From an uncultured Bacteroidales bacterium (lineage in GTDB: Bacteria; Bacteroidota; Bacteroidia; Bacteroidales; P3): DNA of 64,000 nt. The first letter of the stretch is position 1. Each line of letters opens with the position of its first letter. The position numbers were made by a program, and so were the translations under genes. Positions 1-59,174 of the stretch are shown here, one piece after another. The notes beneath the pieces are model-generated. The model saw only the letters and a list, made by a program, of their open reading frames with translations, had not been told where the DNA came from and made no database searches. The stretch is from NCBI GenBank assembly GCA_946401725.1, contig CAMIVE010000002.1, positions 40,963-104,962 on the forward strand, given 5' to 3'.

Positions 1-1153
1 CCGCCGCCGCCTTTGCAAACAGCGCTTGCTTCTCCGCCGGCGGCATCGCCGCCCAGTATTCCAGCGCCTCTTCGATCCTCCGCGCCAGCGCCTGCGGGTC
101 GGGCGCCTGCGATTTCCCCGTGGACGCGTCAAAGGGCACCGGCGCCACCAACGTGCCGATTCCATAGGCTGTCACCACGCGGTGTATCTCCGGGAAATCG
201 GTCGCCAGCACAGGTACGCCGGCCTGCACAAAGTCGGCTATCCGGTTGGGAAATGCATAGTAGTAGTTCAGTCCGCGGTTCTCCAGCAGCGACAGCCCCA
301 AACACGCATGTCGGGTCAGTCCGTACAGCACCTCGGGCACCACGCGGCCCAGGAAGGTGACGCGCTCCCGCAGGTCGGCCCGCTCTGCCTCCCGTTTCAG
401 CCGCTCGTATTCGTCGCCCACTCCGGCCACAACCAGATGGCAGTCGTCCAGATAGGGCATTGCCTCCATCACCCACTCTATTCCGCGCCCCACATTCACG
501 GCTCCCTGGTACAACAGCAGCCGCTTGCCGTCGGGCAACCGTTCCAGCAGCGCCTCCGACTGGATCCTGTCGGCCTCCTCCTGCCGCTTGCGCACCATCG
601 GCACATTCCGCACCACGCCCATCGTCAGACCGTAGCGCTCTCTGTATATCTCCGCTATCGACTCGCACACCGTCACCGCCGCGGTCCGCTTCCGCTGGGC
701 CATCCGGGGAAACAGGCGCTTCTCTATGCCGGTCCAGAACCGCTTCACCCGCGGGCGGCCCACCAGTTCGGGGACCTCGGGAAACAGCTCGTGGGCGTCG
801 AAAAACAACGGCTTCCTGCGCAACACCGCCGCCCAGTAGTTCGCTGGCAGCGTGTCGGTGTCGTTCGCATAGAACAGGTCGGCCTTCATGAAAAGCAGCC
901 GCAGGAACAGACGCATATTGTACTCCGCATAGAAGAACACCTTCTTGCGGAACAGCAGCCGCATCCGCACCGTCTCGTAGCTACGCTCCACCGCGCCGCT
1001 CTCCCGCAGCCGCCGGCCCACCAGCGTCACGCGGTAACCGGCCTCCTGCAGCGCACTGCAGCTGCGGTGCACCCGCTGGTCGGTCACCAGGTCGTTGGTC
1101 ACCGTCACCACAATGCGCTTCCGCTGCCCGTCTGTCGTCTCTTTCGTTTTCAT
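1..1153 (-). CDS. Glycosyltransferase (GT4-like), 3' end runs off the window
   Basis: Minus-strand reading from ATG at 1153: MKTKETTDGQRKRIVVTVTNDLVTDQRVHRSCSALQEAGYRVTLVGRR...DLFYANDTDTLPANYWAAVLRRKPLFFDAHELFPEVPEL...; GT4-like N-terminus. Missing from the ORF track because no stop lies in the window. Confidence 0.85.
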   Translation of the reverse strand, partial: MKTKETTDGQRKRIVVTVTNDLVTDQRVHRSCSALQEAGYRVTLVGRRLRESGAVERSYETVRMRLLFRKKVFFYAEYNMRLFLRLLFMKADLFYANDTDTLPANYWAAVLRRKPLFFDAHELFPEVPELVGRPRVKRFWTGIEKRLFPRMAQRKRTAAVTVCESIAEIYRERYGLTMGVVRNVPMVRKRQEEADRIQSEALLERLPDGKRLLLYQGAVNVGRGIEWVMEAMPYLDDCHLVVAGVGDEYERLKREAERADLRERVTFLGRVVPEVLYGLTRHACLGLSLLENRGLNYYYAFPNRIADFVQAGVPVLATDFPEIHRVVTAYGIGTLVAPVPFDASTGKSQAPDPQALARRIEEALEYWAAMPPAEKQALFAKAAA

Positions 1154-1258
1154 CTCCCCTCTAACGGCACACCCCCGAAATTATTGCCCCACGTCGCTCT
1201 TTCGGTGCAATTCCGCATCTCCTTTGCAACTTTTTTTTGCAGGTTTCGGAAAAGTTGT

Positions 1259-1266
1259 TACCTTTG
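1259..1266 (+). promoter_or_regulatory. Bacteroidota -7 element TACCTTTG upstream of topA (T-rich/TTTG element about 19-20 nt upstream)
   Basis: Sequence ttttttttgcaggtttcggaaaagttgttacctttgc; matches TTTG-N19-21-TAnnTTTG architecture. Confidence 0.55.
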
Positions 1267-1356
1267 CATCTCCGACAGTCTCCCTCTCTTGGGAACCTTT
1301 TTTGTTGGATTTGAAAGAAATAAACAATTTATTATATAATATAGATACATATATAT

Positions 1357-3687
1357 ATGAAGAACCTTGTCATTGTTGAGTCTCCAGCCAAAGCGAAGAC
1401 AATCGAGAAATTCCTTGGGAAAGACTACGAAGTCATGTCAAGCTACGGACACATCCGCGACCTCGCCAAGAAGGAAATGAGCATCGATGTGGACAACAAC
1501 TACGAACCCGAATACCAGATCTCCGAAGAGAAAACCAAACTCGTCGCCGACCTCAAGAAAGCGGCTAAAAGCGCCGACCTCGTCTGGCTCGCCTCCGATG
1601 AGGACCGCGAAGGGGAAGCCATCGCCTGGCACCTCCGCGAAACACTCAACCTCCAGCCGGAGAAAACCAAGCGCATCGTCTTCAACGAAATCACCAAGAA
1701 CGCCATCCTCCACGCCATCGAGAACCCGCGCGACATCGACATGAACCTCGTCGACGCCCAGCAGGCACGCCGCGTGCTCGACCGCCTCGTCGGCTACGAG
1801 ATCAGCCCCATCCTCTGGGCTAAGATCAAACCGGCCCTCAGCGCCGGACGCGTCCAGAGCGTCGCCGTACGCCTCATCGTCGAACGCGAGAACGAAATCC
1901 GCGACTTCCAGTCCCAGAGCTACTTCCGCCTCACGGCCACCTTCCACACCTCCGACAACCGCAAACTCCTCGCCGAACTCTCGCGCCGCTTCGATACGGA
2001 AGAGGAAGCGCAGCAGTTCCTCGAGTCCATCGCCGATTCCCAGTTCACCGTCGACAAGGTCGAAACCAAGCCGGCCCGTCGCAGCCCCGCGCCTCCCTTC
2101 ACCACCTCCACCCTCCAGCAGGAGGCCAGCCGCAAACTGGGCTACTCCGTCGCACGCACCATGCAGATCGCTCAGCAGCTCTACGAGTCGGGATTCATCA
2201 CCTACATGCGTACCGACTCCACCAACCTCAGCGAACTCGCTCTCGATATGGCCCGCAAGCAGATCGGCGCCATGTACGGCGACAAGTACATCAAGACCCG
2301 CCGCTACCACACCAAGATCAAGGGGGCTCAGGAAGCCCACGAGGCCATCCGCCCCACCGATCTCCACCATACCGAAATCAACGCCGACGCCGCCCAGCGC
2401 CGTCTCTACGAGCTCATCTGGAAACGCACCATCGCCTCCCAGATGGCCGATGCCGAACTCGAGAAAACAACCATCGACATCGAAATCAGCAACCATAAGG
2501 ACCGCTTCTCCTGCGCCGGCGAACAGGTGCTCTTCGACGGCTTCCTCAAAGTCTACTTCGAGTCCACCGACGACGAGATCGAGGAAAGCCCCAACCACCA
2601 GCTGCCGCCCGTCAAAAACGGCATGAGCCTCTCCCTCGAAGTCGCTGAAGCCACCCAGCACTACACCCAGCACCCCCCGCGCTACACCGAAGCCTCCCTC
2701 GTCAAGAAACTCGAAGAACTCGGCATCGGCCGCCCCTCCACCTACGCTCCCACCATCTCCACCATCCTCAAACGCGAATACGTCATCAAGGAAGACCGCG
2801 GTCCGCAGGACTTCGACATCACCACCCTCTCCCTCGTCCCCGGCTCCCCCGTCGCCCGCAGCCGCAAGATCGAACACCTCGGCGCCGAGAAGGGCAAGCT
2901 CTTCCCCACCGACATCGGAACCATCGTCAACCAGTTCCTCATGGAGCACTTCAACGAGATCATGGACTACAACTTCACCGCCAAAGTCGAAAAGGACTTC
3001 GACGATGTCGCCAACGGCACCCAAGCCTGGCGCAACGTCATAGGCCAGTTCTACGTCCCCTTCCATCGCAATGTCAAGCAGACCCAGAGCCACTCCAAAC
3101 GCACCTCCGGCGAACGCCTCCTCGGCACCGACCCCGCCACCGGCAAGAATGTCTACGCCAAGATCGGCCGCTACGGAACGCTCATCCAGATCGGCGACAC
3201 CAACGCCGACGAGAAACCCCGTTTCGCCTCCATGAAGAAAGGACAGAGCATCGAGAACATCACCCTCGACGAGGCCCTCGACCTCTTCTCCCTCCCGCGC
3301 ACCATCGGCGACTTCGAAGGCACCGACGTCGTCGTCAGCATCGGCCGCTTCGGACCCTATGTCCGCCACAACGGTAAGTTCTACTCCCTCTCCAAGAACG
3401 ACGACCCCTACACCATCACCCTCGACCGCGCCACCGACATCATCAAGACCAAACGCGAGCAGGCCGAAGAGAAAGAGCGCTTCAAGAGCCTCTACCCCCA
3501 TGAAATCGGCGAATACGAGGGCGAGAAAGTGGTCTCCAACATCGGCAAGTTCGGACCCTACCTCACCTACAAGTCCGAAAACTACCGCATGCCCAAGTCG
3601 GGTGTCGACCCCCTCACCATCTCCCTCGCCGACGCCGTCGCCATCATCCGCGAAATCCAGGAGAAGAAATCCAAGAAAAAGAAATAA
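1357..3687 (+). CDS. topA: DNA topoisomerase I
   Basis: 776 aa; MKNLVIVESPAKAKTIEKFLGKDYEVMSSYGHIRDL, DEDREGEAIAWHL, FITYMRTDSTNLS. Confidence 0.97.
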   Translation: MKNLVIVESPAKAKTIEKFLGKDYEVMSSYGHIRDLAKKEMSIDVDNNYEPEYQISEEKTKLVADLKKAAKSADLVWLASDEDREGEAIAWHLRETLNLQPEKTKRIVFNEITKNAILHAIENPRDIDMNLVDAQQARRVLDRLVGYEISPILWAKIKPALSAGRVQSVAVRLIVERENEIRDFQSQSYFRLTATFHTSDNRKLLAELSRRFDTEEEAQQFLESIADSQFTVDKVETKPARRSPAPPFTTSTLQQEASRKLGYSVARTMQIAQQLYESGFITYMRTDSTNLSELALDMARKQIGAMYGDKYIKTRRYHTKIKGAQEAHEAIRPTDLHHTEINADAAQRRLYELIWKRTIASQMADAELEKTTIDIEISNHKDRFSCAGEQVLFDGFLKVYFESTDDEIEESPNHQLPPVKNGMSLSLEVAEATQHYTQHPPRYTEASLVKKLEELGIGRPSTYAPTISTILKREYVIKEDRGPQDFDITTLSLVPGSPVARSRKIEHLGAEKGKLFPTDIGTIVNQFLMEHFNEIMDYNFTAKVEKDFDDVANGTQAWRNVIGQFYVPFHRNVKQTQSHSKRTSGERLLGTDPATGKNVYAKIGRYGTLIQIGDTNADEKPRFASMKKGQSIENITLDEALDLFSLPRTIGDFEGTDVVVSIGRFGPYVRHNGKFYSLSKNDDPYTITLDRATDIIKTKREQAEEKERFKSLYPHEIGEYEGEKVVSNIGKFGPYLTYKSENYRMPKSGVDPLTISLADAVAIIREIQEKKSKKKK

Positions 3688-3708
3688 CCCTTACGCTATT
3701 ACCACCTT

Positions 3709-5544
3709 ATGAGGAAAGCTTGCCTTCTCATCATCACGCTGCTCGCTGTCAGCTGCCAGAAAGAAGACCTCTCGGGACGTATCCAGCTATTCGCCGAAGC
3801 CCTCAACAGCTCCAAGGTGGTGGTCGACGGACGCAACTCCCAGTGGGTCGACGGCGAACTACTTCGCATCAACAACACCACCAAGACAATTGATGTCTCT
3901 GGAGGAGTCGCCTCTATCGACAATACCACCGAGACCGTCACCGCCCCCTTCTACGCCATCTACCCCGCATCCCTATGTCCTGATGCCGACCTCACCGCTT
4001 CCGGCACCATCGACCTCACACTGCCTTCCACCTACCACTACCAACGGGACGGCTCTAGTAGACAAATCCTTCAACTCCCCATGGCCGCAGCGGCTGCCGA
4101 TGGCAACGAGCTACAATTCAAGCACCTTACAGCAGCACTGGCCGTAAGCGTCAAAAACCAGTTCGGCGACGACATCACCGTTAACGAAATAGTGGTTGAA
4201 AGCAGCCTGTCGCAAATCAGCGGCACACGAACCGTCGATTTCTCCAACATCACCAGCCAGACTGCCAACGACGTAAGTGTCACTGATGCTGAACGCAAGG
4301 TCAACATGGTCTTTGACGAACCGCTTGTGGTCGCCAACAACGAGAGCAAGGATGTGTTACTCCCCGTCCTTCCGGTAAGCAGCAGCAACAAATTCACCGT
4401 CACTGTTATCGCGACATTCAACGGCAAACGCTATTCGTTCAGCAGAACACAAAACACGGGCGGTGCCTTGGCTCGAAACGAGATAGGCTATGTGCCGGTC
4501 AATATGAGTGCTGCCGACGAACATGTAAGCATTCTGGTCAACTCGGCCTCCGATTTCTCCAGTCTGGTGTCCTATATCAACGGTCTCTCCGCTAGCGGAA
4601 ATACCGTCCGCGTCACTATTGACGGCACCGTCAACCTCGGTGGCGCCTCTGTCACCCCCATCAATGTCCAAGGGAATACCCTTGTCATCGAAGGCACCAA
4701 CAACGCTGTCCTCAAAAACATGACGTTTTCGGGCGCCAGCAACTACTACGGACTGACCTATTCCACCAATGCCGCATCGTCAATCACCATCAACAACTTG
4801 ACAATGGAAGACATTACCATGCCTGGGTCGAATAGAACACAATGTTATATAGGTACCATGTGTGCTTACACTCAAGGAAATATAACTTTAAATGGCTGTA
4901 CCGTCAAAAATGTCAGTATTGGACAATCTTCTCAAACACTGGAAGCAGCGTTTGGTGGTCTAATAGGATATCTGCATGTTAATAGTACAGGTCGGGATCC
5001 TCTGGTCGCACAAATACAGAATTGCAATTTTTACCAAGACAATACTTTAATCAATCCGAGCATCACAAAACTGTCATATCCTTATCTAGGCGGAATAATA
5101 GGACAAATATATGAACAGAAAGATATTCGAATTCAGACAACAATAAGCAACTGTACTGTCTCTACATCCAACGAAAGTTCATTTTCCACCACAATAGCAA
5201 TGACAGGGAATCCTAATCCATTATATTTAGGAGGTCTAATTGGGTATTATAGAACTTATAATTCAACACCTGATTTTTCAAATCTAATTATTCATAACAC
5301 TGATGCTAAAATACTTTTTACTGTTACCCAAAGTGGACAAAATATTTACATCGGTGGTTTTATCGGATTTTGCATGGGATCAAATTATCCAAGCACAACC
5401 TATTGGAATGGAAATACTGTTTCTGGAGAAATAAATTATACAAGTGGAAGTACAATCCATGTGGGACAAGTGGTTGGAAACCGTACTGATGAATCCAACT
5501 GGGTCGGTCGCGTAACTCACACTGTTTCAAAAAATCCATTATAA
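3709..5544 (+). CDS. Fimbrillin-like (Mfa/FimB-type N-terminus) surface lipoprotein with C-terminal GLUG/beta-helix-like repeats
   Basis: Lipobox LLAVSCQKE; fimbrillin-like N-terminal half; repeated GGLIGYL / GGIIGQI / GGLIGYY / GGFIGFC segments. Confidence 0.65.
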   Translation: MRKACLLIITLLAVSCQKEDLSGRIQLFAEALNSSKVVVDGRNSQWVDGELLRINNTTKTIDVSGGVASIDNTTETVTAPFYAIYPASLCPDADLTASGTIDLTLPSTYHYQRDGSSRQILQLPMAAAAADGNELQFKHLTAALAVSVKNQFGDDITVNEIVVESSLSQISGTRTVDFSNITSQTANDVSVTDAERKVNMVFDEPLVVANNESKDVLLPVLPVSSSNKFTVTVIATFNGKRYSFSRTQNTGGALARNEIGYVPVNMSAADEHVSILVNSASDFSSLVSYINGLSASGNTVRVTIDGTVNLGGASVTPINVQGNTLVIEGTNNAVLKNMTFSGASNYYGLTYSTNAASSITINNLTMEDITMPGSNRTQCYIGTMCAYTQGNITLNGCTVKNVSIGQSSQTLEAAFGGLIGYLHVNSTGRDPLVAQIQNCNFYQDNTLINPSITKLSYPYLGGIIGQIYEQKDIRIQTTISNCTVSTSNESSFSTTIAMTGNPNPLYLGGLIGYYRTYNSTPDFSNLIIHNTDAKILFTVTQSGQNIYIGGFIGFCMGSNYPSTTYWNGNTVSGEINYTSGSTIHVGQVVGNRTDESNWVGRVTHTVSKNPL

Positions 5545-49035: not shown

Positions 49036-50037
49036 TTATACCCGGCGGAAGCGGTCTTGAAGAATATGTATCCTGTCTATTAAGCTGTCAAACGCTAGGC
49101 TTTTGCCATAAATGAAGGACTGCTGCATGGCCTCATAATCCGAACGCCAGTCGGGCAATAAGATGTCTGGAGGACAAATCATTATCCTGTCGGGATTATT
49201 GCTGTCATAATCAACATACTTCAGGCAATAATATTCCCGTCGGTGCTGTACAATTGTCCGATACAACGTCATGTCCGACAACGCCGACAGGCCGTATTCC
49301 GTATCCATCATTCGCTCCAGGTCGTATAGGTGTCGGCTCATACGGAAACTGCGAGAGTGGTCGCGCTGATATTCCTCATTTAGCAGGAAGGCCTTCTCCA
49401 AGAATGTCCGGGTGGGCAACACGGTGTTCATCTCAAAGGCATCGTCCTGTTCCAACGCAGGAATGCATTGCGATAGCAAAGAGGATAAGTTCCTCGGTGC
49501 AACGGGTTCTTTCATCGACAGGCAACTGATTTCTATCATCACCGCCGGTTGTAGATAGGACAACAGGGAGGGATACAGACTTTTATACTTCACCAGTATT
49601 GTCGTGGGGTCTTTGTCTCCATCAATCTCTTTGTCGCGTATAGTTGTCACAGGTTCGACGGTATAGCCGCTGCATCCGAGTGCACCGAGCGCATCGTTCA
49701 GCTCCGATGAGAGTGTTTCGGTAATAAACTGACGGCTTTCTTTGCGCAGTTTTAGACGCTGGCTCCGGCTGGTATTGTCGATACCAAAGAAGGTATGGTC
49801 CAAAGCGAGGTCGACATCCTCGCTGAAGCGATCAATCAGCCCCCATGCTTTGCTTAGTGATGTGCCACCCTTGAAACTCAGATGGTTGGCACATGAGGAT
49901 TGCGAGAGCAGCTGCAACACTATTGTCACCCACCAGTCTTTCTCGATAACCTGTACCGACAGCTTTGTCTGTTCCGAAGCCTGTGCAAAAAGCATTTTCT
50001 TTTCCTTATCACCGAGTGCTGCAAACCTATTTCTCAT
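49036..50037 (-). CDS. AbiEii/AbiGii-type nucleotidyltransferase toxin
   Basis: 333 aa; VIEKDWWVTIVLQLL, LSFKGGTSLSKAWGLIDRFSEDVDLAL. Confidence 0.93.
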   Translation of the reverse strand: MRNRFAALGDKEKKMLFAQASEQTKLSVQVIEKDWWVTIVLQLLSQSSCANHLSFKGGTSLSKAWGLIDRFSEDVDLALDHTFFGIDNTSRSQRLKLRKESRQFITETLSSELNDALGALGCSGYTVEPVTTIRDKEIDGDKDPTTILVKYKSLYPSLLSYLQPAVMIEISCLSMKEPVAPRNLSSLLSQCIPALEQDDAFEMNTVLPTRTFLEKAFLLNEEYQRDHSRSFRMSRHLYDLERMMDTEYGLSALSDMTLYRTIVQHRREYYCLKYVDYDSNNPDRIMICPPDILLPDWRSDYEAMQQSFIYGKSLAFDSLIDRIHILQDRFRRV

Positions 50038-50635
50038 AAGCCCTCCTCACGATAAGACTAATCCATTCCGGCATCAAAGCAAGGTCGGCCATCATGGATT
50101 CTTTCGTTTCGTTTCGCAACAAGGCTACAATGGCATTCTCCTGCTCGGCAGTAACCTTGTCGGCACCTATCTCTTTCAATGCAAAGGTGATGAGCATAGC
50201 GAGGCTGTTGGAGAAGGCCAGGTTTTTAGGTGCCGTGTGACGAAAAAGGATACCTCTATCGCCATCGAGTCGTATCTTTCTGGCGGAACCATCAGTCAGA
50301 TAGACGGCATTCATCGGCACCTGTTCCGAAAGACCCAGCATATTGAGGGCTTGGTCGCCTGTGGGTGCAATTCTTGCCTTATCACGCCGGGCAATAGCTT
50401 GTGCAATCTCGTCGTAGGTGGGGCGCAGAATTCCCAGACCCCACTGCTTGTCCACTTTAGGATAGCAATAGATGCCTCTTGAAACGCGAATAATGTCACC
50501 TTTGTTCACAAGTCGTTCCAACGCTTTCAGAACAGATTTGCTTTCTCCGAGTGTGGTGAAGTCTGTCGAGAAGAATATGCAACCTCTACCTCTTCCATGA
50601 AGACGTGCTAATATCTTATCATCAATACTTTGCAT
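50027..50635 (-). CDS. AbiEi-like (DUF6088) antitoxin with N-terminal winged helix
   Basis: MQSIDDKILARLHGRGRGCIFFSTDFTTLGESKSVLKALERLVNKGDIIRVSRGIYCYP; overlaps the AbiEii start. Confidence 0.88.
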   Translation of the reverse strand: MQSIDDKILARLHGRGRGCIFFSTDFTTLGESKSVLKALERLVNKGDIIRVSRGIYCYPKVDKQWGLGILRPTYDEIAQAIARRDKARIAPTGDQALNMLGLSEQVPMNAVYLTDGSARKIRLDGDRGILFRHTAPKNLAFSNSLAMLITFALKEIGADKVTAEQENAIVALLRNETKESMMADLALMPEWISLIVRRAYEK

Positions 50636-50654
50636 AATATTATACCGTTTATAT

Positions 50655-50687
50655 TTTGTCGCAAAAATACATATTTTTTTCGACAAA
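50655..50687. promoter_or_regulatory. Inverted repeat flanking the predicted AbiE promoter
   Basis: TTTGTCG-caaaaatacatatttttt...-CGACAAA, containing -7 element TATTTTTG (minus). Confidence 0.55.
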
Positions 50688-50921
50688 TAGATATACTTTA
50701 CATAATTCATATCAAAAATTATCAACAAACTTTATATTTTAAATACATTCTGATTGACAACAGACCCGGCAAAGCGCAGATGGCGATAGAGATAGAGGCT
50801 TGGAATAATACGAAAACTGTGAGCTATCTGCTTCAGGAGAATCTCCGCTGCCTAAAGTTTTTCTATCGCTTTTGCTACTGCACGACGGGAAATACCCAGA
50901 GCCAAACTCGTACTCTATAAT

Positions 50922-52636: not shown

Positions 52637-54334
52637 TCAGAGACCAATCTTTTCGTTGACGATTTTGAGGATTTCGGCCTCTTCCTTGATGGCGGCAGCC
52701 TCGATGGCGGCGGCTTTGGCAAGGATGTCGTTCTTGAAGGCCTCGTCTTTCAGACTGCTGGCGTTGATCTTCACATTGAGATGGGCTCCCATCACGGCGC
52801 TGCGGGCGGCAAGTGCTCCCACGCCGCCATCGGTGACGCTGGCGGGATTGCCCCACTCCACCATGGCACGGCAGACTTCGAAAGCCTCCATAGACTTCTG
52901 CATGGTGTGGAACGGTACCTCGGTGGCAAACTTGGTAGCCTCCTGGATGGCGGCACTGCGGGCGGCCTTCTCTTCGTCGCTCTTCTTGGGCAGACCGAAG
53001 GCATTCATGATCTTGTTGAAGGCGTTGGTGTCCTCGTCAACCAGATGCAGCAACTCGTTCTTGATTTGCTGTCCGTGGACGGCGACATCGCTGAATTTCT
53101 CCCATTCGTCGTCGTAAGCGGCCTTGCCACCGGTGAGGTTGGCAACCATGGTGCCGAGCGAAGCGGCGAGGGCGCCCATATAGGCACTGACGGAACCACC
53201 GCCGGGAGCGGGACTTTCGGAAGCGGTCTCCTCGCAGAAACCGGTGCAGGTGAGGTCGACCAGTTTCTTCTGGCTGTTGTCCTCAATCAGGAATTCAATG
53301 ACTTTCTCCTTGGGGTTGAACGGCTTGAGGTCGTCAAGGCCCATGGATTTGACAGCGATCTTCATGATTTCCTCTTCGCTGACGCCAAGGGAACGTTTCT
53401 GTTTGGCCAGATAGTATTTGCCGGCATCGATAAGGACGCTCTTGGGGATAAGGCCCACAATCTCACATCCGGTGACGCGGACACCGCGGTTGGCGGCACA
53501 GCGGCACACTTCGTCGAAGCAGAGATGGACGGGGGCCACCTTGATGGAGGTGATGTTCATGGAGACCTGCGCGATGCCGTAGTCCTCGATGAACCAGCCG
53601 ATGGCCTTGGTGCCTTTGAGGGTACCGGGGATCATGATGGTCTTGCCATTCTCGTCCTTCATGGGTTTGCCAGAGGGCTTGCCGCCTTCACGCATGGGAC
53701 GGCCTTTCTCACGGACGTCGAAAGCGATGGCGTTGGCGCGACGGGTGGAGGTGGTGTTGAGGTTGTAGTTGATGGCCACGAGGAAATCGCGGGCGCCCAC
53801 CTGGGTGGCACCGGTCTGGGCAGTGTGGTCGTTCCAGGCGTTGGGACCGTAGTCGGGGCACCACTGCTCGGTACCGAGACGGGTCGAGAGCGATTCGTAT
53901 TCGCCGGTACGACAGTAAGCCAGGTTGCGGCGTTCGGGAATCTTGGCTGCGTTCTCGTAGCAGTAAATGGGTATCTGCAGCTCGTTGCCGATGCGCTCAG
54001 CTAGCTTGTGGGCGTAAGCGACGGTCTCTTCCATGCTGATGTTGCTCACCGGGATGAGGGGGCAGACATCGGTGGCACCCTGACGGGGATGGGCGCCGTG
54101 GTGCTGACGCATGTCGATGAGTTCGGCGGCTTTCTGAACCACACGGAAAGCGGCTTCGCAAGCCTGCTCGGGTTCGCCGACGAAAGTGATGACCGTACGA
54201 TTGGTGGTCTGGCCGGGATCGACATCCAGCAGTTTGACACCTTCCACCTTTTCAATCTCGGCAGTGACCTGATTGATGATATTCATGTCGCGTCCTTCGG
54301 AGATATTGGGAACGCATTCAATCAATTGTTTCAT
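52637..54334 (-). CDS. ftcD: Bifunctional glutamate formimidoyltransferase / formimidoyltetrahydrofolate cyclodeaminase
   Basis: 565 aa; ECVPNISEGRDMNIINQVT, ESPAPGGGSVSAYMGALAASLGTMVANLT. Confidence 0.95.
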   Translation of the reverse strand: MKQLIECVPNISEGRDMNIINQVTAEIEKVEGVKLLDVDPGQTTNRTVITFVGEPEQACEAAFRVVQKAAELIDMRQHHGAHPRQGATDVCPLIPVSNISMEETVAYAHKLAERIGNELQIPIYCYENAAKIPERRNLAYCRTGEYESLSTRLGTEQWCPDYGPNAWNDHTAQTGATQVGARDFLVAINYNLNTTSTRRANAIAFDVREKGRPMREGGKPSGKPMKDENGKTIMIPGTLKGTKAIGWFIEDYGIAQVSMNITSIKVAPVHLCFDEVCRCAANRGVRVTGCEIVGLIPKSVLIDAGKYYLAKQKRSLGVSEEEIMKIAVKSMGLDDLKPFNPKEKVIEFLIEDNSQKKLVDLTCTGFCEETASESPAPGGGSVSAYMGALAASLGTMVANLTGGKAAYDDEWEKFSDVAVHGQQIKNELLHLVDEDTNAFNKIMNAFGLPKKSDEEKAARSAAIQEATKFATEVPFHTMQKSMEAFEVCRAMVEWGNPASVTDGGVGALAARSAVMGAHLNVKINASSLKDEAFKNDILAKAAAIEAAAIKEEAEILKIVNEKIGL

Positions 54335-54427
54335 ATATATCTTATTAAATTACAATAATCTATTAATCCGAATCCCTATCGGTTCGAGACCACAAAGTTA
54401 CAAAACTTTTTTGGATTGCGCGTCAGA

Positions 54428-54916
54428 CTATTTCTTCTTCAACGTAAGCAGTATTTTTTCCAGGACGGGCAGGTATGTAGCTTCTTCGTCCAGCATGAAA
54501 CTCATGACGCCGGTGAAAGCCTCCGCGTCGCGGATGACCACCACATAGTCGTATTCCACTAATTCATCACGCACCTTGCGCAGCATCATGATGTTGTCCT
54601 TCACTATAGGATCGTCTATTTTCCATGCGGGCGTACCGTCTTCAGAATCCTCTTTCGACATCTTCACCGTTTCGCCGTAAAGCTTCAGCATGTCGACCGG
54701 CGTCACATCATCGCCATACCATACAGACAACTTGTGGTTGTCGTCCTTTTTCCATACGTTCACGGCATCGTCCCACGGGTCGACGACGTCTTTGTAGTCT
54801 TTCGGGTGTTGCACACTGAACTGGGGTCCGTCATAGGTTACCAAATCCACAGCGCTCTGGGCGTTGATTGTCATCGCAATGGCCACAAAAGCCATCATTG
54901 TAAGTATTTTTTTCAT
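54428..54916 (-). CDS. Hypothetical secreted protein
   Basis: 162 aa; signal peptide MKKILTMMAFVAIAMTINAQ. Confidence 0.75.
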   Translation of the reverse strand: MKKILTMMAFVAIAMTINAQSAVDLVTYDGPQFSVQHPKDYKDVVDPWDDAVNVWKKDDNHKLSVWYGDDVTPVDMLKLYGETVKMSKEDSEDGTPAWKIDDPIVKDNIMMLRKVRDELVEYDYVVVIRDAEAFTGVMSFMLDEEATYLPVLEKILLTLKKK

Positions 54917-55045
54917 GAGTAGATAAGTTTAAAAGTTCGTTTTTTTAAGTTTAACTATCAGATATTTTTAAGATTTGTTTGATTTGTATCAATTTGCAGG
55001 ATTTCTGCCGCAGAGCGACATTCTCAAGCATCGCTTCACGAGAAA

Positions 55046-55663
55046 TCATTCATAGTACTCAATCCTGCGGGAGATTCTACTTGTATAGGTCGATCTTTGA
55101 ATATTGTCATAATCATCTTCATATATTTCTGTACTTGACGTTGTGCATTCAGCCTCTATCCAATTACCATATCTGTCGAATTCAAGATAAACATATGTAT
55201 TAATAAAACTATATTCCACCAATTCGGCGCCGCCTTTGGCTACAAAATACCGTATATTTCCTGTTTCGTCCCATGTGATTTCTGCATCATATCCTGCATC
55301 CAATAATTCGCAGCTCACCTTATTAATATAACCATCTGAGCCATAGAAATACTCATTGTTTTGCATTCTGTCGTTAAGAGAGTTATTACCCCAATAAATC
55401 TGCCAACCCTTCAAAAAATTATATGAATTTCTTTTTATCTTTCCCTTGTCATTGGGCGTATCATGGTAATACGGTACCAATTGGGTTATCATACTATTTC
55501 TGTTAAAAGATACCATTTCTACATTTAAGATAGGATCTTGGCCCTCTGTATAAACGATACGCTTCACCGGTCCGCGTACGGCCAGTATCTTCTGGTCGCT
55601 TGTCTGGGCGTTGATTGTCATCGCGATGGCCACAAAAGCCAAAACAGTCAGTATTTTTTTCAT
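55046..55663 (-). CDS. Secreted protein homologous to the C-terminal domain of the nearby Ser/Thr kinase
   Basis: MKKILTVLAFVAIAMTINAQTSDQKILAVRGPVKRIVYTEGQDPILNVEMVSFN...SRRIEYYE*. Confidence 0.75.
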   Translation of the reverse strand: MKKILTVLAFVAIAMTINAQTSDQKILAVRGPVKRIVYTEGQDPILNVEMVSFNRNSMITQLVPYYHDTPNDKGKIKRNSYNFLKGWQIYWGNNSLNDRMQNNEYFYGSDGYINKVSCELLDAGYDAEITWDETGNIRYFVAKGGAELVEYSFINTYVYLEFDRYGNWIEAECTTSSTEIYEDDYDNIQRSTYTSRISRRIEYYE

Positions 55664-55716
55664 AGGTTGAACTATTGATATATTAAAAAAGGTGGAGTTC
55701 CCGGGCTGCACTTCCA

Positions 55717-56487
55717 TCATTCCACTACTTTGCCGGTTTTGTCTATTGTGAAGTACTTTCCACTTTTTGACACCATTGCACGTCCATTCTTAAAAGGATC
55801 GGCGTCATCGTACTCGCATGGGATAACCATACGGCAGTTTTCGTCCATAAAGCCGTAATGATACACTTGGCGAAGCGGAGGACCATGCTCCTCTGTGTTT
55901 TCTATCCACTCCGTTTTTAGCAACACAGACAATCCTTCAACAAAAGGAGATACCATCATATACGATTCCCCATCAAGTGTGATACTTGGGTAGCCAAATG
56001 AAAATACTGGCAGCTCAACATTATCAAGCCTCAGCGGAGTGATGGAGCTTCCATCTTCATCTATCAAGCCCCATTTAACACCATCCGACACAGCGATGAA
56101 ATACTGCTCCTCCTTACTGAATTTGCCCAATAGCATATCTTTGTACGCTTTCTTGCTGAGTATCTTGCCTCCCTTTGTAACCAGCCACCATCCCTGTTCG
56201 TCCCTCACCGTGAAGAGGTTGTCTAAGAGATATCCCAACTCCCTGTACTTTACAGGAAGGACTTCGTTCAACAACGTGTCAAAAAGTCCTGTCCTGCCAT
56301 CTTTCACAACAATGAGATATTGCTCCATCCGACGCACCTCATCGTACTTTCCCGTGAATTTCGACCATTGCCGTGAAGATATGCCATTCGGAATATCTTT
56401 GTCTTGAGAGAACAGACAAGGAACCGACCCTAACAGGAATAAAGCAAGCAATAAAAATTTTGTGTGACGTATCATGTGGTATGGCAT
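55717..56487 (-). CDS. WG-repeat-like secreted protein
   Basis: 256 aa; signal peptide; repeats GRTGLFDTLLNEVLPVKY, VKWGLIDEDGSSITPL, YGFMDENCRMVIPCEYDDADPFKNGRAMV. Confidence 0.75.
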   Translation of the reverse strand: MPYHMIRHTKFLLLALFLLGSVPCLFSQDKDIPNGISSRQWSKFTGKYDEVRRMEQYLIVVKDGRTGLFDTLLNEVLPVKYRELGYLLDNLFTVRDEQGWWLVTKGGKILSKKAYKDMLLGKFSKEEQYFIAVSDGVKWGLIDEDGSSITPLRLDNVELPVFSFGYPSITLDGESYMMVSPFVEGLSVLLKTEWIENTEEHGPPLRQVYHYGFMDENCRMVIPCEYDDADPFKNGRAMVSKSGKYFTIDKTGKVVE

Positions 56488-56619
56488 TTTAAAGATATAT
56501 CCTAGTTTTTGTATTGTTTGATATGATTGAATTTGAGTGATTTATTTCGATTTGTATGATTTGTTTCGATTTGTAAGATTTCTGCCGCCGGGCGGCACGC
56601 CTAAACAAAAGTCCTATTA

Positions 56620-58269
56620 TCATTCGTAGTATTCAATTGTACGGGTGATTTTTTTACGGGTAGTACTCTTCTCACCTTTGTAGTATGAATCGTGCTCATA
56701 ATCATATCCTGTATTTGTATATTCCAACTCTGTCCAATTGCCGAATGCATCAGTCTTGAGGTATTTGTATGTGATTGTAAATTCCCAAACAAAACCTTCC
56801 CCGCTACCTTCGCCTTTAATCTTCGTCAATTTCCCATCTTTGTCCCATGATACTGAATTTTCCGTACCACTTTCCCAGTATAAATCAGTTATTTTTTTTA
56901 CAAATCCATCAATATTAAAAGTATATTGATGTTTTTCTCTTGCGTCGTTCATATAATCATCATCCCAAAAGAGGCTCCATTCTTCCAATGAATTGTCAGA
57001 ATCTCTTTTGAGAACAGCCTTGTCTTTGGAAGATTTATTGCTGGATATCATTTTGTTTATCAGGCCATTTTCGTCAAAATATATTTTATCAACAAATAAT
57101 ATAGGATCAACTTCCTTGTTATACACAATGCTTTTTATCGGGCCATGGGCGCCGACCATCTTCAGGTCGGGCGTTTGGAAATTGACACGGGCAATGGAGT
57201 CCTCGATGGCTTTCAGCCTTGCCTGTTCTTTCTCTTCACGGATTTTCCGTTCCAAAGCAGCCTGCTGTTCGGCGAGGAGTTGTGCCTTATGCTGGTTGTT
57301 CCGGTGGATTCCAAACCACATACCGACGGCAAAAAATATCACCACAGGGATAATCCAGTACGGAAAATCCCTGGTCGGTTTGGAGGGTTGAACGGGGGGT
57401 GTCGACGGCTTGACATTCCGCAGGTCATCCATAAACTCCTGCATGGTCTGGTGGCGGTCGGCCGAATTCAGCTGCATGGCCTTGAGGATGGTGCGGTTGG
57501 CTTCGTCAGGAATGGCGGAATTCAGCGTTTGGGGCTCAACCATCACGTCGGTCATACGCGAGACAGCATCCAAAGGCACCTTGCCGGTAAGGGCGAAATA
57601 AAAGGTGGCGCCCAAAGCGTAGATATCGGTATAGGAGCCCTTACGGCTGGTGGTGGAGTACTGCTCCGGAGGAGCATAGCCATGCGTGAGTATGGAGGTG
57701 TGGGACTGGGTCTTGTCGTTGACAAACTCGCGCGCCGAGCCGAAATCGATAAGGATGGCACGGTAGTCGGCTGTAATGATGATGTTCTCAGGCTTGATGT
57801 CGCGATGCAGGATATGCCGCTCATGGATATAGGTCACCGCATCGGCCACCTGGGCCAGGTAATTGACCGCCTTCGGATAGTCGAGCGGACCCTCTCTGTC
57901 TACAACCTGCTGCAAGGTGTTCCCCTCGATAAAAGGCATCACCATGTAGGAGGTGTTGTTCTCGTCGAAGATGTCAATCACCTCCACGATGCCCGGGTGC
58001 TGTAACGTGGAAAGGGTCTCTGCCTCTTTCCTGAAAGCCTGACGGTACTTCTCGAAAACAGCCGCATCTTTGTCCTGCGGCATGACCTGGTGGGTGAACA
58101 CATCCCGTGTGCAACGAACCGATGGGAAATACTCTTTGATGCACACTATCCGGTTCAGATCGTTCTGTACGGCACGGTAAGTGAAACTGAAACCGCCCTC
58201 ACCGATTTTTTCCATGATGGTGTAGCGGTTACCACAAAGTGTTTTTCCGGGTTGTAAATCAATCAACAT
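56620..58269 (-). CDS. Transmembrane Hanks-type Ser/Thr protein kinase with extracytoplasmic C-terminal domain
   Basis: 549 aa; HILHRDIKPENIIITADYRAILIDFGSARE; TM FPYWIIPVVIFFAVGMWFGI; C-terminal HGPIKSIVYNKEVDPILFVDKIYFDENG...TRTIEYYE. Confidence 0.93.
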   Translation of the reverse strand: MLIDLQPGKTLCGNRYTIMEKIGEGGFSFTYRAVQNDLNRIVCIKEYFPSVRCTRDVFTHQVMPQDKDAAVFEKYRQAFRKEAETLSTLQHPGIVEVIDIFDENNTSYMVMPFIEGNTLQQVVDREGPLDYPKAVNYLAQVADAVTYIHERHILHRDIKPENIIITADYRAILIDFGSAREFVNDKTQSHTSILTHGYAPPEQYSTTSRKGSYTDIYALGATFYFALTGKVPLDAVSRMTDVMVEPQTLNSAIPDEANRTILKAMQLNSADRHQTMQEFMDDLRNVKPSTPPVQPSKPTRDFPYWIIPVVIFFAVGMWFGIHRNNQHKAQLLAEQQAALERKIREEKEQARLKAIEDSIARVNFQTPDLKMVGAHGPIKSIVYNKEVDPILFVDKIYFDENGLINKMISSNKSSKDKAVLKRDSDNSLEEWSLFWDDDYMNDAREKHQYTFNIDGFVKKITDLYWESGTENSVSWDKDGKLTKIKGEGSGEGFVWEFTITYKYLKTDAFGNWTELEYTNTGYDYEHDSYYKGEKSTTRKKITRTIEYYE

Positions 58270-58402
58270 AGTTCAATGCATTTCCTATCGACACACGGGG
58301 ATTATTTATTCCAAAAACAAAATGCAAAAATACAACTTTTCTCTCAAACGACAAAATAGGTCTTATTTTTTGACTTGCACACATTTCAATTGAACTTTTT
58401 TG

Positions 58403-58410
58403 TATATTTG
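58403..58410 (+). promoter_or_regulatory. Putative -7 element TATATTTG
   Basis: About 70 nt upstream of ATG 58479. Confidence 0.45.
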
Positions 58411-58478
58411 CACTAAAGAAAAGAAAACGAAAAGATAGATAAAACCAACTATAAATCAATTCAAAAAACCATACAACG

Positions 58479-59174
58479 ATGAAAAAAGCGTTTATTTTCA
58501 TTTTATGTTTTGCAATGGGCGGAGTCCTGTTTGCCCAATCCAAAAGCGAACTCAAAGAGCAGTTAGACGCAATGACTATCAAGGTGACGGAATTAAGTTC
58601 CATTGTGATGGAACTGGAAAAAAAGGTGCAACAATCAAACAATGAACGTCAACAGCTCCAAGCAAAAATCAATACGATGGCGGATGAAACCGATAGACTC
58701 AACAACACCATCAAAACACAGAACACGGCTCTGGCAAGCTACGCAGAACAGGTAGCGCGTCTGAACAGCGAAATAACGGCACTCAGCAACCTCGTAGCAA
58801 GCAACGACAGAAAGGGAGCTGATGCAACGGCAACAGCTGGTGAACGGGAATTTGTGGTGTTTTTCAGCAACACGCAAAACAACACCTTCACTGTCCCAGA
58901 AGGGAAGTCTTGGCTTGTATCCGGATTTACACTCGGATGGGTTTACGGAAAATATAAAGATGCTCGTGCTTATGTACGTCTAACAAAATGGAATACACAA
59001 AAAATAACAAATTATCCCATAGGTGGTACAAATGGTTTTGAAACCTATCAAGAGGCAATCCCCGAGAAGACAACGATAACCGTCCAAGTCCGTACGGGAG
59101 GCGAAGATGACAATCCTGTATTCGCCCCCGATGCCGAAGGCTACCTTTTAATCAAGGAAATAGACAACAAATAG
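58479..59174 (+). CDS. Secreted coiled-coil protein with C-terminal beta-rich domain
   Basis: 231 aa; signal peptide MKKAFIFILCFAMGGVLFAQ; heptad region; FVVFFSNTQNNTFTVPEGKSWLVSGFTLG. Confidence 0.75.
   Translation: MKKAFIFILCFAMGGVLFAQSKSELKEQLDAMTIKVTELSSIVMELEKKVQQSNNERQQLQAKINTMADETDRLNNTIKTQNTALASYAEQVARLNSEITALSNLVASNDRKGADATATAGEREFVVFFSNTQNNTFTVPEGKSWLVSGFTLGWVYGKYKDARAYVRLTKWNTQKITNYPIGGTNGFETYQEAIPEKTTITVQVRTGGEDDNPVFAPDAEGYLLIKEIDNK

Follow-up and report, generated by a model that had tools for sequence, protein, structure and literature searches.

Why a bacterium should encode the extracytoplasmic domain of a receptor kinase a second time, as a free secreted protein within the same gene array, is the question raised by the locus described here. 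It lies in a 64,000-nucleotide stretch (the window, G000:C2:40963-104962) of a 1.6-Mb, approximately 60% complete MAG of Bacteroidales type, and close relatives of its kinase come from Bacteroidales MAGs named from rumen and gut. A first-pass annotation had noticed the similarity between the two proteins, left their common domain without a name and interpreted the pair as part of an envelope-sensing system. This interpretation stands in part: the common domain and the tethered/free layout were borne out, and envelope sensing by the kinase is plausible, but conservation of the gene group was not found.

The kinase, a WG-repeat protein, the free copy of the kinase ectodomain and a fourth gene are all co-directional on the minus strand (Table 1). 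The kinase carries the motifs HRDIKPEN, DFG and PPE (by reading) and, according to hydropathy, a TM segment followed by a predicted extracytoplasmic domain, as is characteristic of transmembrane Hanks-type Ser/Thr kinases. The middle gene, whose position between kinase and free copy had been correctly recognised, combines PF14903 repeats with a heuristic signal peptide. At its N-terminus, the free copy has the sequence MKKILTVLAFVAIAMTINAQ, on reading a typical signal peptide, in keeping with the export previously predicted for it; a longer ATG-ORF reaching 55720 is also present. For the product of the fourth gene, a Pfam scan gave no match. The signal peptides of the free copy and the fourth gene are identical at 54 of 60 nucleotides, which suggests a signal-peptide duplication or conversion between adjacent, otherwise unrelated genes. 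A consensus scan found a promoter-like site ahead of the kinase (a consensus match only), and the sole other minus-strand match in the interval 54300-58700 is at 54400, past the fourth gene. Because of this spacing, the four genes likely form one operon, whose members would be co-transcribed. Elsewhere in the window, two adjoining ORFs at 49036-50728 look by eye like an AbiEii/AbiEi-type toxin-antitoxin pair.

Table 1. Features of the kinase locus (nucleotide positions refer to the window, residues to the kinase protein)
Feature	Position	Strand	Description
Promoter-like site	58325-58355	minus	TTTG-N19-TATTTTTG, Bacteroidales-type, upstream of kinase
Kinase	56620-58269	minus	549 aa, transmembrane Hanks-type Ser/Thr kinase
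Kinase catalytic domain	residues about 16-289		PF00069, E=9e-45
Kinase juxtamembrane stretch and linker			Pro-rich juxtamembrane stretch; charged linker between TM and ectodomain
Kinase TM	residues 303-321		hydropathy; single hydrophobic segment, N-terminal to ectodomain
Kinase YD-type ectodomain	residues about 362-549		BLASTP against free copy
Ectodomain-coding segment of kinase gene	56620-57186	minus	AT-rich, homologous to free copy
39-nt core of 3' flank, copy 1	56550-56588	minus	past kinase stop codon
WG-repeat protein	55717-56487	minus	PF14903, E=1.9e-19, two stretches; signal peptide by heuristic
Free copy of kinase ectodomain	55046-55663	minus	205 aa; signal peptide and YD-type module
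39-nt core of 3' flank, copy 2	54973-55011	minus	past stop codon of free copy
Fourth gene	54428-54916	minus	small secreted protein
Gene beyond fourth gene	52637-54334		565 aa, formimidoyltransferase-type enzyme, by reading

The kinase C-terminus and the free copy are clearly homologous (BLASTP: 127 bits, E=1e-38, 33% identity over 189 aa with one gap), as had been claimed. A search of the genome, within the limits of a 60%-complete MAG, returned these two as the only copies of the module; a third match is merely the signal peptide of the fourth gene. In a 28-row tree of YD-type modules they form a sister pair with 99/94 support. Homology extends past both stop codons into the non-coding flanks over approximately 80 nt, starting 22 and 25 nt into the two flanks, with a score of 37.5 against 22.5 for the best of 500 shuffles. 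Within it, a 39-nt core occurs exactly twice in the (60%-complete) genome, after the stop codons of the kinase and the free copy. The sister placement and the common flank with its twice-only core argue for an origin of the two copies by local duplication of the module together with its 3' flank, and this predicted origin is well supported. The core copies differ at 5 of 39 positions, whereas the coding parts share 55% nucleotide identity, so that either the coding sequence has diversified fast or the flank is constrained.

Third codon positions are AT-rich in both copies (GC3 of 0.35 in the ectodomain and 0.37 in the free copy, compared to 0.70 in the kinase domain), for which reason each copy resembles a graft placed after a native leader; a similar drop in GC3 past the TM is seen in several paralogous kinases, such that this is a trend and not unique to this kinase. 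As to the direction of transfer, the end of the free copy's signal peptide (INAQT) resembles VNFQT in the kinase, and YD proteins are mostly secreted, which is why capture of a secreted form by the kinase is tentatively favoured, although the fourth gene has a signal peptide much like the one on the free copy.

Neither the free copy nor the ectodomain was named directly by Pfam or NCBIfam, and RHS_repeat (PF05593) had no Pfam match in either, though it is matched by two relatives and by neighbours in locus L079. A profile built from the two copies finds secreted proteins of other Bacteroidales with the pattern GPVK...YDxxG...DxxGNWxxR...RxIxYY. In a profile-profile comparison with eight independent proteins of this kind, the similarity was upheld (hhalign probability 99.5, E=8.8e-23), and a joint profile, which includes the window copies, matches an Rhs protein (PDB 8h8a, 7e-7) and teneurin-like chains (3e-6). 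Furthermore, a related locus encodes secreted proteins whose YD repeats are unmistakable (PF05593, 5e-8) and whose last residues, IEREIEYYE, closely resemble those of the window copies. On the strength of these profile matches and shared ends, the domain is a short (about 180 aa), divergent module of the RHS/YD-repeat type. It has the YD-repeat pattern in common with Rhs proteins and teneurins (PDB 8h8a, 9ifo) by profile match, but these are large encapsulating shells. The same module, with GPVK at the N-terminal and DxxGNWxE...RxIEYY at the C-terminal end, makes up small secreted Bacteroidales proteins for which we found no dedicated Pfam family. Of 393 Bacteroidales genomes sampled, 60 contain it, and the relatives examined by reading are stand-alone small secreted proteins and lipoproteins; none of them is fused to a kinase, and no second kinase bearing the module was found in the sampled genomes. 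AlphaFold2 models from two- and four-sequence inputs are beta-rich, but their pLDDT values of 38.6 and 41.2 are too low to use.

The kinase itself has a number of relatives. It matches nine sequences in its own genome (one of them being the free copy's locus or a short kinase) and eleven in one genus-mate, and none in most genus-mates at the same threshold. In the closest of these relatives, the kinase domain shares 52-75% identity with that of the window kinase, while the parts past the TM are unrelated. Paralog ectodomains include YARHG (PF13308, 7e-25), FGE-sulfatase (2e-48), MORN (7e-20) and CD225 (5e-25), a weak Fib_succ/Lcl_C match and several without a name, and a more distant kinase uses WG repeats as its ectodomain (1e-83). 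The nearest kinases (75% identical) bear YARHG or an unnamed domain and the next nearest a Fib_succ-like one; this genome encodes one such YARHG (PF13308) paralog, at 75% identity, with a D-Ala-D-Ala carboxypeptidase-like gene after it. With classes assigned via BLAST, Pfam and reading, at least 23 changes of ectodomain class are needed across 34 kinases, and in two species, represented by the window genome and genome G060, a chromosomal site bounded by the same genes holds kinases with different ectodomains. At the sequence level, these comparisons show the kinase to be a member of a lineage-specific family with a conserved catalytic and TM chassis and ectodomain turnover.

What follows the kinase gene is also of interest. 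Of 27 next co-directional genes, 21 encode a signal peptide, compared to 48 of 209 other genes in these loci (p=3.5e-8, by a home-made rule and with related, hence not independent, loci). These downstream partners include L,D-transpeptidases, BACON and MORN proteins and a beta-propeller, and a D-Ala-D-Ala carboxypeptidase-like lipoprotein directly follows one kinase. Partners are homologous in 23 of 35 kinase pairs with homologous ectodomains, but in only 5 of 290 others (permutation p=0.0002), and the association persists when the largest ectodomain group is left out (4/14 versus 5/290, p=0.0003). At 70-80% kinase identity, a homologous partner is seen in 15 of 19 pairs sharing an ectodomain and in 0 of 76 others, which argues that the ectodomain and the adjacent secreted gene travel as a single 3' cassette. 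Below 70% kinase identity, the effect (2/9 ectodomain-sharing pairs, permutation p=0.17) is not significant; vertical descent (orthology) therefore accounts for part of the co-segregation. The simplest account would be recombination within the conserved kinase domain that swaps the 3' end of the gene along with what follows it. We found no published description of such a cassette in open-access full texts. What this pattern supports is that ectodomains and neighbours are paired as a general feature; it does not extend to the two YD copies specifically: at the window locus, the positional partner is the WG protein, and the free copy lies one gene further on.

Several other regions harbor dense Ser/Thr kinase clusters. 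Loci L049, L050 (G000:C11) and L064-L081 hold many TM-bearing FHA proteins as well as PP2C-like, vWA-FHA and zinc-ribbon (CPNGHYY) proteins, and read as an extensive phosphosignalling island of eukaryotic-like character in gut Bacteroidales. In kinase/FHA clusters of related Bacteroidales, as at L066, a 1104-aa FHA-FtsK/SpoIIIE protein (508-3819, plus strand) adjoins a 97-aa protein (3904-4194, plus strand) with a sub-threshold WXG100 match (20.5 bits versus a cut-off of 27.3); the two resemble a type VII secretion ATPase and its substrate outside Bacillota/Actinomycetota. Homologs of this ATPase are found in 6 of 190 family genomes, and the observation also covers G110, G032, G024, G182 and G060.

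The first-pass annotation had expected the kinase, the WG gene and the secreted gene to be conserved together, and a conserved triad must be rejected. There are no close copies of the module in the 189 other genomes of the family (190 in total), and the triad is absent upstream of the orthologue of the formimidoyltransferase-like gene in six genus-mates. That gene is 88-96% conserved in the genus-mates, and its upstream neighbourhood differs in each of them; the region is a possible insertion hotspot. In G060, the same upstream region holds a CRISPR-effector lookalike and cas genes (L129:660-6434), recognised by eye. Within-locus comparison likewise led us to reject a general rule that a kinase ectodomain has an adjacent free copy. 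The only cases of sharing within a locus are the window pair, one tandem kinase pair and a CD225 segment common to a kinase and an FHA protein, and no other locus examined has an adjacent free secreted copy matching the kinase ectodomain. The CD225 case comes closest: a kinase and a nearby FHA protein (L076:4994-5596 and L076:6085-7356, plus strand) both end in a CD225 (interferon-induced TM protein) segment, 70% identical between them, which makes this a second kinase C-terminal module that recurs in a neighbour.

How the two YD copies relate functionally can be approached from these data. We consider a modular envelope-sensing kinase with a co-transcribed set of secreted partners, in which the free copy acts as co-sensor or oligomer partner, to have a probability of about one half; interaction, export and ligand are all predicted here. 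A secreted RHS/YD-type module with its 3' flank would have been duplicated locally, leaving one copy attached after the TM of the kinase and the second preceded by a signal peptide. The kinase chassis would repeatedly gain new ectodomains, each arriving with its adjacent secreted gene in a single 3' cassette. What the tethered module would read is an envelope ligand, either its state or its occupancy; in the same compartment, the free copy, together with the WG protein, would serve as co-sensor or hetero-oligomer partner and set kinase clustering and autophosphorylation. The pair could instead be an evolutionary by-product, in which an adjacent secreted YD gene gave or received the module and nothing beyond adjacency links the two at present. 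We regard this as rather unlikely, even though stand-alone secreted proteins made of the module are common, ectodomains and secreted neighbours are drawn from one domain pool (WG, MORN, Lcl_C/Fib_succ, FGE), the copies have diverged down to 33% amino acid identity and the pair is lineage-specific. Across loci, the type of ectodomain co-segregates with the adjacent partner, and both copies are still open within one co-directional array that has no second clear promoter.

The occurrence of the same module in tethered and free form, in one operon and with the same compartment expected, would also suit a decoy or competitor that would capture the ligand recognised by the kinase ectodomain and thereby dampen the signal. 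Such a role is improbable, given that 33% identity gives no hint of one retained binding site and that the arrangement does not recur at other loci. That the module is a remnant of an Rhs/polymorphic-toxin type element, and not a sensor, is suggested by its sequence class but highly improbable, and we set it aside because of domain length and architecture: it spans about 180 aa, is without core or toxin tip and is fused to an intact kinase, and its relatives are small secreted proteins and lipoproteins.

The kinase has parallels in known receptors. Like the PASTA-type Hanks kinases PknB and StkP, the window kinase combines a cytoplasmic Ser/Thr kinase, one TM and an extracytoplasmic sensor domain, with the same envelope logic; in contrast to them, it has a YD-type ectodomain and a free copy of it in the same gene array. 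A Pfam scan found no PASTA repeats in it, and the NCBIfam PASTA-kinase model matches only its kinase part, far under the cut-off. The ectodomain of StkP binds peptidoglycan (PMC12077195). YARHG-domain kinases have a comparable kinase-TM-extracellular module but a different ectodomain; the paper describing them covers six kinase fusions and not an exchange of ectodomain/partner cassettes (PMC3355149). By analogy with StkP and the YARHG kinases, the window kinase probably reports on the envelope; the peptidoglycan enzymes that adjoin several paralogs are in line with this. At L054/L077 and L067 (kinase and YkuD), an L,D-transpeptidase gene comes directly after the kinase, and at L048:9248-11417 the gene right after the kinase is D-Ala-D-Ala carboxypeptidase-like; such neighbours hint that these paralogous kinases sense peptidoglycan.

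The receptor-type Hanks kinase is thus a known type, and the point of wider interest is the ectodomain/partner cassette. We tentatively propose that the receptor kinases of herbivore- and termite-gut Bacteroidales are combinatorial, with one chassis and exchangeable ectodomain-plus-partner cassettes in which the partner would be the cognate extracellular counterpart; the window would be an extreme case, in which a partner is the ectodomain's own diverged copy in free form. Only a minority of bacterial Ser/Thr kinases has a known extracellular signal. If ectodomain and adjacent secreted gene are indeed matched cassettes, gene order alone would nominate partners for dozens of orphan kinases, and the window locus offers a tethered/free pair that is open to testing. 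Such receptors may switch specificity by replacing everything downstream of the conserved kinase domain.
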